A program made the position numbers and the translations under genes. DNA of 54,400 nucleotides from a candidate division NC10 bacterium CSP1-5 (GTDB taxonomy: Bacteria; Methylomirabilota; Methylomirabilia; Methylomirabilales; CSP1-5): assembly GCA_001443495.1 (NCBI GenBank), contig LDXR01000010.1, forward strand, positions 1 to 54,400. The letters run 5' to 3'. Under the pieces are notes generated by a model. That model had not been told where the DNA came from and did not search any database. It saw nothing but the letters and a program-made list of their open reading frames with translations. Shown in pieces: positions 1-1,617 of the stretch; the first letter of the stretch is position 1, and every line of letters begins with the position of its first letter.

Positions 1-289
1 GACTCCGGATTTTTTCTAAGCCATAGGCTCCGAACTCGTAAGTGACGCGTTGCTTCACGCCGTGGCACTCGATGATGTCGCCCGGCCGTGCCTCGTCTGG
101 CAAGATGACGGTCTCCTCGCCGACGGCGCAGCTCGCCGTCTTCACGGGGATCACGGACCAGCTTCCGTCCCTTTCGCTCGCCCGGAGCGAAAGACCGGCT
201 CAATTCGGACAATTGAAGCTGTCTCCGCTACGGATCCCGACCGGGAGATCGATGAGCCGCCCTCAGCCGTGACAGGATGCCTTCGGCAT
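1..289 (-). CDS. Candidate double-selenocysteine zinc-ribbon-like protein (partial)
   Basis: The reading frame opens with ATG at 289 behind a strong ribosome binding site (GGAGGAGAGGG) and runs off the left edge after 96 codons. It is broken only by UGA at codon 9 (263-265) and codon 30 (200-202). The N-terminus reads SCHG-U-GRLIDLP and then FNCPN-U-AGL, so both UGAs occupy the second position of a CxxC pair 20 residues apart, the layout of a small zinc ribbon. The rest (VILPDEARPGDIIECHG and onward) looks beta-rich and contains two more cysteines. Each UGA is followed by a stem-loop at SECIS distance. The gene is last in an operon with an ArsR-type repressor, a MerB homologue and a Sec glutaredoxin. 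I do not recognise the family. A thiol/selenol metal ligand for mercury is an inference. Two independent nonsense mutations at exactly these positions would be the alternative. Confidence 0.72.
171..199 (-). promoter_or_regulatory. SECIS-like stem-loop after UGA codon 30
   Basis: Directly after the UGA at 200-202 (minus strand) there are six unpaired bases, then a perfect 9-bp stem CTTTCGCTC/GAGCGAAAG (193-185 and 179-171) closing a 5-nt loop CGGGC. The loop starts 15 nt after the UGA, close to the spacing used by SelB in bacterial SECIS elements. The stem lies inside coding sequence. Confidence 0.7.
233..262 (-). promoter_or_regulatory. Weaker SECIS-like stem-loop after UGA codon 9
   Basis: Downstream of the UGA at 263-265 a TCCC/GGGA stem (246-243 and 238-235) closes a GGUC loop, with two more outer pairs possible across a bulge. 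The loop begins 20 nt after the UGA and contains a GU step as in known bacterial SECIS loops. It is less stable than the element after codon 30. Confidence 0.45.
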
Positions 290-322
290 CGCCCTCTCCT
301 CCGGCCCCTCCCGCGGCGCCCG

Positions 323-559
323 CTACGTGATGCCTAAGAGTCGCTCGATCTTGCCCCGGTCGAAGCCGACGATGACCTCGCCGTCGATAACCGTCACCGG
401 GGTCGCCCGCACCCCGAGCTTCAGCAGCTCCTCGAGCGCCTGCGGATCCTCGCGGATATCTTTCGCGATGAACGGGATGCCATTCTGAGAAAGAAACTCT
501 TTCTCTTGATCGCAGGCACCTCACCCGTGCTGGGTGTACACGATCACCTGCTTCGCCAT
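323..559 (-). CDS. Candidate selenocysteine glutaredoxin (UxxC)
   Basis: A 78-residue frame starts at ATG 559 (MAKQVIVYTQHG) and ends with TAG at 323-325. It is interrupted only by UGA at 521-523, which replaces the first cysteine of the thioredoxin-fold active site: HG-U-GAC, a UxxC motif. After it come EFLSQNGIPF and the cis-proline stretch RATPVTVIDGEVIVGFD, all typical of NrdH/glutaredoxin-like proteins of about 75-80 residues. A well-formed stem-loop follows the UGA. The product should be a cytosolic thiol-disulfide or selenol oxidoreductase. The gene begins 14 bp after the MerB homologue and precedes the double-UGA gene, so it is co-transcribed with them. A role in thiol-mercury exchange or in reducing a partner protein is inferred. 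Sec-containing glutaredoxins are known from other bacteria. Confidence 0.85.
476..520 (-). promoter_or_regulatory. SECIS-like element in the glutaredoxin gene
   Basis: Reading leftward from the UGA at 521-523, GGUGCC (520-515) pairs with GGCAUC (481-476) as an outer stem with one G-U pair. Inside it GAGAAAG (505-499) pairs perfectly with CUUUCUC (493-487) around the loop AGUUU. The loop GU falls about 24 nt after the UGA, inside the range for bacterial SECIS elements. Confidence 0.75.
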
Positions 560-573
560 GTCTTCCTCCTCGC

Positions 574-1230
574 TTATCGCGGACTTGCCCCCGCCAAGAG
601 CGAGCCAAAAATTTCTTTTCCTGCTTCAAAGGCTTCGGGCAGCGAGAAGACAACGCCGGGGGGTTGCCCTTTTATCTGCCGCCAGGCCTCGAGGTGGTCA
701 CTGCTACAGAAGAAGCCGATGCTCGGACAGCGAGATTCGGCAACCGGGCAGCACTGGTTTTCCGAGGTTGGAAACCAGACGAGCGTCTCGGTCGGGACAT
801 ATCGCGTCACGCACTCGGGCCGTGCCTGAATCTCGACGAGCGCTCCGCAGTGGCCGCAGTGAGATGAGATGCGGACCTCCTCCTGCAGCATGGCCGGAAT
901 CCCGAGGGCGTCCACAGCGCAGAGGGCAAAGACCTCTCGCCCGACCAGGCGAACCCGGTGGGGTGTGGGGGTTGCGGAGAAAGGGTAGGCTGCCAGAACA
1001 ATCTCTGCCGTGGCATCCACGAGGAGCAAGTCGATAGCCGCGAGCCGGCCGAGGATCTCGCGGATGTGATCAGGCGCGATTTCACATCGCTCCGCAAGGA
1101 TGCTGACCGTTGGAGTCACGCCCAAAGCAAGGATCGATAGAACACGCCGCCGGATTTTGTCCTCTTGGGGGTTGAGGCGAGCGGCCCTCAATCGGTCCGC
1201 CACAGTCTTTACGCCATCAGGCAGCGACAC
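574..1230 (-). CDS. merB: MerB-family organomercurial lyase homologue
   Basis: The 218-residue protein matches the length of organomercurial lyase (about 212). MerB protonolyses carbon-mercury bonds with Cys96, Asp99 and Cys159 (plasmid R831b numbering). Here FALCAVDALGIPAML supplies C104 and D107, ISSHCGHCG carries the equivalent of the structural Cys117 at C125, and ESRCPSIGFFCS supplies C168 at the Cys159 position. The N-terminal third is a winged-helix-like alkylmercury lyase domain. An extra CxxC (C125/C128) and a CC pair (C160/C161) are additional metal ligands. It sits between a CmtR-like repressor and two UGA-containing genes, with no merA in view. The family also contains homologues of untested substrate, so lyase activity is likely but not shown. 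Confidence 0.82.
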   Translation of the reverse strand: MSLPDGVKTVADRLRAARLNPQEDKIRRRVLSILALGVTPTVSILAERCEIAPDHIREILGRLAAIDLLLVDATAEIVLAAYPFSATPTPHRVRLVGREVFALCAVDALGIPAMLQEEVRISSHCGHCGALVEIQARPECVTRYVPTETLVWFPTSENQCCPVAESRCPSIGFFCSSDHLEAWRQIKGQPPGVVFSLPEAFEAGKEIFGSLLAGASPR

Positions 1231-1260: not shown

Positions 1261-1617
1261 TTAACGGTCCCGCTCAATTCGCGTGCAGGCCCAGAGATGC
1301 TCGGCGTTGTCCGAGACCATGTCGCGGGCGAGCCCAAGGATCCTCCGAACCCGCTTGTCCGCCGCCCGGTAATACCGGTGTCGCCCCTTTCGCGAGGCGG
1401 TTACGTACCCGCACCAACTCAAACACGCCAGATGACTCGACACCCGCCCCTGAGGTACGCCGAGGGCCTCGACGAGTTGGGTCACGGTGCGCTCTCGCTC
1501 GAGGAGCAGTTCGAGGATTTTCAGGCGAGTAGGGTCGCCGAGTCCACGGAAAAATTTGGCCTCGAGCTGTAGCTGCTCAACCTCTTGCGCCGGGAGCCGT
1601 TTGGTCAATGTCGACAT
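1261..1617 (-). CDS. ArsR/SmtB-family metal-responsive repressor, CmtR-like
   Basis: A 118-residue winged-helix protein with the ArsR core RGLGDPTRLKILELLLE and recognition helix VPQGRVSSHLACL. It carries Cys-Leu-Ser-Trp-Cys in the DNA-recognition region and a C-terminal cysteine in HLWACTR. This is the arrangement used by Mycobacterium CmtR to bind Cd(II)/Pb(II) (Cys57, Cys61, Cys102). It lacks the CxC alpha-3 box of ArsR. ATG at 1617 follows AGAAGGAGA. It is the first gene of the leftward operon with merB and the UGA genes, and a palindrome overlapping its own promoter suggests autoregulation. Inducer specificity (Hg, Cd, Pb, organomercury) cannot be read from sequence. Confidence 0.88.
   Translation of the reverse strand: MSTLTKRLPAQEVEQLQLEAKFFRGLGDPTRLKILELLLERERTVTQLVEALGVPQGRVSSHLACLSWCGYVTASRKGRHRYYRAADKRVRRILGLARDMVSDNAEHLWACTRIERDR

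Follow-up and report, generated by a model that had tools for sequence, protein, structure and literature searches.

Selenium in metal-handling proteins is already known, since selenoproteome reviews (PMC13188914, PMC9312934) include an FmdB zinc ribbon with a U/CxxU motif, a UxxU metal-binding protein and the lyase SaoL. Because the FmdB ribbon is on record, selenocysteine (Sec) in a metal knuckle is not wholly new. The UxxU metal-binding (seleno)protein NF041115 is MerP-like and carries Sec at the mercury-binding GMT-UxxU motif. The selenocysteine-assisted organometallic (SAO) system combines a MerB-like lyase, SaoL (NF040728), with several selenoproteins per operon (PMC13188914). The LysW/ArgW carrier (PF21344, NF041070; PDB 3vpb) is a small zinc ribbon, and a C-terminal EDWGE motif marks these carriers.

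The window, the whole stretch of 54,400 nucleotides analysed here, comprises contig positions 1-54400. Its first 1617 nucleotides hold part of an operon on the minus strand, and the last gene of this part encodes a small protein that we call DSec. The features, in order of transcription, are as follows.

1261..1617, minus strand: metalloregulator of the ArsR/SmtB family, which opens the operon (NF033788, 84.3 bits, cut-off 55)
574..1230, minus strand: MerB homologue, organomercurial lyase (PF03243, 126.9 bits, cut-off 27)
323..559, minus strand: Sec-glutaredoxin with the motif HGUGAC, UGA at codon 13 (523-521), with PF00462 and YruB/UXX-star matches
290..308, minus strand: ribosome-binding region of DSec, containing GGAGGAGAGG
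289-287, minus strand: ATG start of DSec
2..289, minus strand: DSec, predicted double-Sec tandem zinc-ribbon protein, 96 codons to the contig end, with UGA at codons 9 and 30
263..265, minus strand: UGA codon 9, read as Sec, second position of the first CxxU (SCHGU)
200..202, minus strand: UGA codon 30, read as Sec, second position of the second CxxU (NCPNU)

The DSec frame reads MPKASCHGU...FNCPNU..., with the spacing C6-x2-U9-x17-C27-x2-U30. It remains open up to contig base 1; the contig edge cuts the gene, and its 3′ end is missing. Neither this missing part nor the remainder of the operon was found elsewhere in the same assembly. As the window starts at the contig edge, all knowledge of MerT, MerF and MerP in this operon comes from relatives.

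Each half of DSec resembles LysW/ArgW, but DSec differs from that carrier in its two tandem ribbons, the Sec residues in the first ribbon and its Mer neighbours. It fails the curated cut-off of NF041070, with 33 against 75 bits. The EDWGE tail and neighbours of lysine or arginine biosynthesis are absent; DSec relatives end in ..YALEK and lie beside Mer proteins. The identity of a LysW carrier for lysine biosynthesis agrees with the fold, and membership is rejected by score, tail and neighbours. The FmdB protein (TIGR02605) is likewise a predicted zinc-ribbon selenoprotein, yet it has a single ribbon and belongs to a different family. Its model matches 17 of 35 DSec members weakly (best E 2.4e-6) and does not match the window protein at E <= 0.01. 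The model for a dual CxxC (seleno)protein, NF041197, finds 1 of the 35 members at E 0.0024 and not the window protein. NF041115 shares operons with DSec, but it is a separate gene whose product has an HMA/ferredoxin-like fold and an N-terminal export-like segment.

At the level of the operon, SAO differs in its ABC-transporter components (SaoB/P/X) and has no LysW-like protein among its listed parts; the window MerB reaches 73 bits with the SaoL model, against a cut-off of 140. The classical mer operon (MerR/T/P/F/A/B) shares the MerB, MerF, MerT-like and MerP-like components. In contrast to it, the DSec operon has ArsR in place of MerR, an additional Sec-glutaredoxin and DSec, and Sec in several parts, and the source genome lacks a mercuric reductase (MerA) above the NCBIfam cut-off (best 398 bits against 454). 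The window protein itself has no Pfam match and no NCBIfam model above cut-off, and DSec was not recognised in the 2026 review PMC13188914, which covers 119 families and subfamilies (part of its table). DSec is therefore probably a new selenoprotein family, and not a new class of system. This judgement is limited by a Methylomirabilota MAG for which 63 selenoprotein genes have been predicted, from a phylum described as very rich in selenoproteins (PMC13188914); that set may include DSec.

Relatives of DSec are widespread in the lineage. An order-level search recovered them from 16 of 35 genomes, the majority having one or two TGAs inside the frame, and a phylum-level alignment search found them in 38 of 95 Methylomirabilota genomes, many without any stop. 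With relatives in so many genomes of this phylum, and Cys relatives running through both UGAs, the frame is far beyond chance. Where records carry a name, they are MAGs of Methylomirabilota, NC10 and Rokubacteria, together with L063, which is labelled Nitrospirae but lies inside the family on the tree. The distribution outside Methylomirabilota rests on a single scan of named genomes with search patterns biased to the Sec clade. Plasmids and viral contigs gave no DSec match, and spread by either is rejected on that ground. Additional partial or frameshifted copies were seen in L114 (G071:C55) and L113 (G065:C56), one of them with three UGAs in 45 codons.

Codon states, alignment and tree refer to 41 distinct DSec sequences. 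At codon 9, 18 of them have UGA, 22 Cys and one Arg (L099); at codon 30, 30 have UGA and the other 11 Cys. Taken together, the two codons are U/U in 18 sequences, C/U in 12, C/C in 10 and R/C in one. The all-Cys relatives place CPDC...CPNC exactly opposite CHGU...CPNU of the window. Apart from the Arg9 of L099, positions 6, 9, 27 and 30 are C or U in every sequence. UGA30 is retained in 27/27 sequences of the main clade. The tree requires at least 8 state changes, with switching between Cys and Sec on several branches. Downstream of codon 30, dN/dS is 0.05-0.16 in eight sequence pairs, indicating purifying selection past UGA30.

The machinery for Sec insertion is present in the source genome. 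The tRNA-Sec gene selC was found, SelB, SelA and SelD are each above cut-off, and the SelD gene itself contains a UGA. UGA terminates 9 of the 29 long ORFs of the window, which shows that it is also a normal stop in this genome. Across the phylum, tRNA-Sec is present in 79 of 95 Methylomirabilota genomes. Among the genomes with a UGA-bearing DSec, only G004, which is 76% complete, lacks a tRNA-Sec match. In G025, G033 and G034 a second tRNA-Sec candidate of lower score (54-58 bits) was observed beside the main one.

Both UGAs are followed by a stem-loop.

171..193, minus strand: SECIS-like stem-loop after UGA30, 9 bp with loop CGGGC, 9/9 pairs, at +7..+29
235..246, minus strand: stem-loop after UGA9, SECIS-like but weaker, with 4 bp and loop GGTC, 4/6 of the family stem positions

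Fixed stem positions were scored against 2000 synonymous-codon shuffles of the same proteins. The UGA30 stem averages 7.44/9 pairs across 27 UGA30 sequences, against 4.22+-0.30 in the null, and 0/2000 shuffles scored as high; Cys30 versions have just 4.0/9 pairs. The UGA9 stem averages 5.61/6 pairs across 18 UGA9 sequences, against a null of 4.72+-0.15, with 3.5/6 in Cys9 versions. The excess at UGA9 is significant for the group, not for single sequences. Rank tests of U against C versions give p values of about 4e-6 and 3e-6 for the two stems, which are overstated, as the sequences share kinship. The bacterial SECIS model requires a G within the first two bases of the apical loop, some 16-37 nt from the UGA (PMC13188914). 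The loop CGGGC begins after 15 nt from UGA30, at the lower edge of this range, and the loop GGYC after 20 nt from UGA9. The computation thus shows that both DSec UGAs carry SECIS elements that fit the published bacterial model and are under selection at the level of the group. One sequence, L053, has Cys at codon 9 among UGA relatives and still keeps the codon-9 stem, as might be expected of a recent replacement of Sec by Cys.

An earlier note, made from the sequence alone, had described a frame with a ribosome-binding site interrupted only by two UGAs, each in place of the second Cys of a CxxC pair. Both parts held: the frame lies on the minus strand behind GGAGGAGAGG, and Cys homologues align exactly through codons 9 and 30, which was the check it had proposed. 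Its second check, the presence of selA, selB, selC and selD, was passed for all four, and neither of the two outcomes that it had named as refuting was observed. The perfect 9-bp stem that it saw past the second UGA and the weaker one past the first were also confirmed. One adjustment of emphasis is needed: of the two Sec residues, U30 is the more conserved, and U9 is more often replaced by Cys. The two Sec codons are shown by computation, and it is very probable that DSec is a double selenoprotein, although Sec insertion is inferred in the absence of selenium or expression data.

The fold was predicted from 35 sequences. The AlphaFold model of DSec is all-beta, with a pLDDT of 92.6, and its top PDB match is LysW (3vpb_E, probability 1.00, TM 0.68 on target). 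The N- and C-terminal halves are mutually homologous (hhalign 96.8%), and DSec is therefore read as two tandem ribbons. This computation gives a predicted fold of two tandem LysW-like zinc ribbons. Cys6, Cys27, Cys54 and Cys75 are invariant across the family. The first ribbon meets the criterion for a metal knuckle, namely four soft ligands arranged as CxxC-xn-CxxC. The partners of Cys54 and Cys75 in the second ribbon are Gly57 and His76 for most members of the Sec clade, and Cys57 and Cys76 for most relatives of the other clade; the two clades thus have different second metal sites. The DSec sequence shows no evident signal peptide and no evident membrane segment, so the protein is probably soluble and cytosolic, an inference from sequence only.

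The gene order ArsR, MerB, Sec-glutaredoxin, DSec recurs in many genomes, and the operon is shown by computation. The window MerB has its catalytic C, D and C in place, with Cys and not Sec at the cysteine positions. The Sec-glutaredoxin lies immediately 5′ of DSec in all sufficiently long loci except L054. In the window its UGA is followed by a stem-loop, and the protein is a known kind of Sec-glutaredoxin related to YruB/UXX-star. On the 3′ side of DSec, relatives encode MerF or a MerT-like protein, followed by a MerP-like HMA protein with GMT-UxxU. The MerF exceeds both curated cut-offs (NF033565, 77.8 bits, cut-off 50), and the MerP-like proteins have an HMA match above cut-off. At E <= 0.001 the MerT-like protein matches nothing in Pfam; its identity is tentative, resting on weak NCBIfam matches and gene position. 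A PF02411 search for MerT in the source genome gave no match, and the controls gave none either. The MerP-like GMT-UxxU proteins occur even beside all-Cys DSec.

Sec also reaches the lyase in some relatives. MerB ORFs with an in-frame UGA were found in L049, L055, L056, L057, L097, L100, L112, L116, L117, L119 and L124, at a position that we take to be the equivalent of the catalytic Cys159, where the window MerB has Cys. The MerB catalytic residues are named in PMC8261052.

The criterion for a mer component, linkage to MerB and to MerT, MerF or MerP, is met, with MerB in the window and the others in relatives. DSec is thus likely part of a mercury/organomercury system, in the absence of expression or resistance data. 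The zinc-ribbon reading of the earlier note is supported by the AlphaFold model and by LysW as its top PDB match, and its mercury reading is strengthened by the MerF/MerT and MerP-like GMT-UxxU proteins 3′ of DSec. Its claim that two of the four ligands are selenolates is implied by fold geometry only; metal binding and the identity of the metal remain inferred.

We favour, by a modest margin, a role of DSec as a mercury-binding relay over a redox or structural one; metal binding, metal identity and the direction of transfer are all inferred. The setting is likely an ArsR-controlled Methylomirabilota mercury operon made up largely of selenoproteins: Sec-glutaredoxin and, in relatives, the MerP-like GMT-UxxU protein, in some cases Sec-MerB, and a DCC-family UxxU protein beside MerF. 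Mercury prefers selenolate over thiolate, which is established chemistry. In the first ribbon, residues 6 and 27 would offer thiolates and residues 9 and 30 selenolates, and this ribbon would bind cytosolic Hg(II) or a cytosolic organomercurial. Capture may proceed by thiolate-selenolate exchange, both from MerB and on the side of MerT/MerF that faces the cytosol. DSec would then hold the metal and carry it among MerT/MerF, MerB and a step of reduction or export, and the Sec-glutaredoxin may keep the CxxU pairs of DSec reduced or strip the metal from them. The receiver of the metal is undetermined, because no MerA is above cut-off in the source genome. Some findings speak against the relay. 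The all-Cys relatives manage without Sec in the same place of the same operon, and CxxU is also a classical redox motif, with a Sec-glutaredoxin as the closest partner.

The main rival, which is possible and not excluded, is a redox protein whose CxxU selenenylsulfides would link the Sec-glutaredoxin by electron transfer to the mercury enzymes, or to a chain of the DCC/DsbD kind, with metal binding secondary. In its favour, CxxU is found commonly as a redox motif, a redox activity is presumed for most uncharacterised selenoproteins (PMC13188914), and the Sec-glutaredoxin is directly 5′ at nearly every DSec locus. Against it, the model predicts LysW-like zinc ribbons in tandem rather than a thioredoxin-like fold, the four Cys residues at 6, 27, 54 and 75 do not vary, and the CxxC-x17-CxxC spacing is typical of metal knuckles. 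DSec might also be a structural or docking zinc ribbon that serves MerB, MerT or MerF as a scaffold; its Sec would then have arisen from Cys largely by neutral drift in a Sec-rich lineage. All-Cys and mixed versions in the same operon, and a phylum reportedly very rich in selenoproteins (PMC13188914), agree with such drift. We consider it unlikely, as UGA30 is kept throughout the main clade, the SECIS elements are selected at synonymous sites, and Sec, which is costly, recurs at metal or catalytic positions of the adjoining Mer proteins.

It could finally be argued that the UGAs are real stops or encode another amino acid and that the frame arose by chance or is a pseudogene, given that UGA is a normal stop that ends almost a third of the long window ORFs. 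This is very improbable. The protein is conserved, with purifying selection past the UGAs, and the source genome has a complete selABCD set. True stops or a reassigned codon are rejected on the ground of the exact Cys homologues, the selection and the SECIS elements.

Returning to the mercury relay, the placement of DSec suggests, with slightly better than even support, that mercury is gripped by selenium, though binding is inferred. A bolder reading, which we hold to be slightly less likely than not, is that the mercury contacts from periplasm to lyase use selenolates (MerP UxxU, DSec beside MerT/MerF, Sec-glutaredoxin, Sec-MerB), with the ribbon of two selenolates and two thiolates as the cytosolic relay. 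If true, it would provide a natural metal knuckle with selenolate ligands. Mercury transfer, like binding, is inferred. DSec puts Sec at zinc-ribbon knuckle positions, where redox is not the obvious explanation. Cys and Sec versions in the same operon of related species offer a natural comparison of the benefit of selenium for mercury handling. DSec also draws attention to mer operons with several selenoprotein parts, whose genes would be cut short or overlooked by gene callers for which UGA is always a stop.

A general fusion of DSec to MerF was considered and rejected. In the closest relative, L043 (G011), the DSec frame runs without a stop into MerF (L043:6363-6890, minus strand), and such read-through is seen only in G011 (L043 and L062, one contig); L063 and L044 have a TAG between DSec and MerF, and the contig of the window stops short of this junction. 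Directly after MerF, a DCC1-like thiol-disulfide oxidoreductase with YDGDUGLU (two UGAs) is encoded at L043:6023-6376, L044:6637-6990 and L063:2448-2801. The MerP-like HMA proteins with GMT-UxxU 3′ of DSec were seen in L046, L049, L050, L051, L053, L056, L057, L058, L061 and L097-L100. L051:4594-4884 (minus strand) encodes an HMA-like protein with GMT-UxSC, having one Sec rather than two. A divergent gene at 1821-2399 of the window (plus strand) encodes a 192-aa protein with one N-terminal membrane segment, and it is found beside the operon also in L043 and L044.
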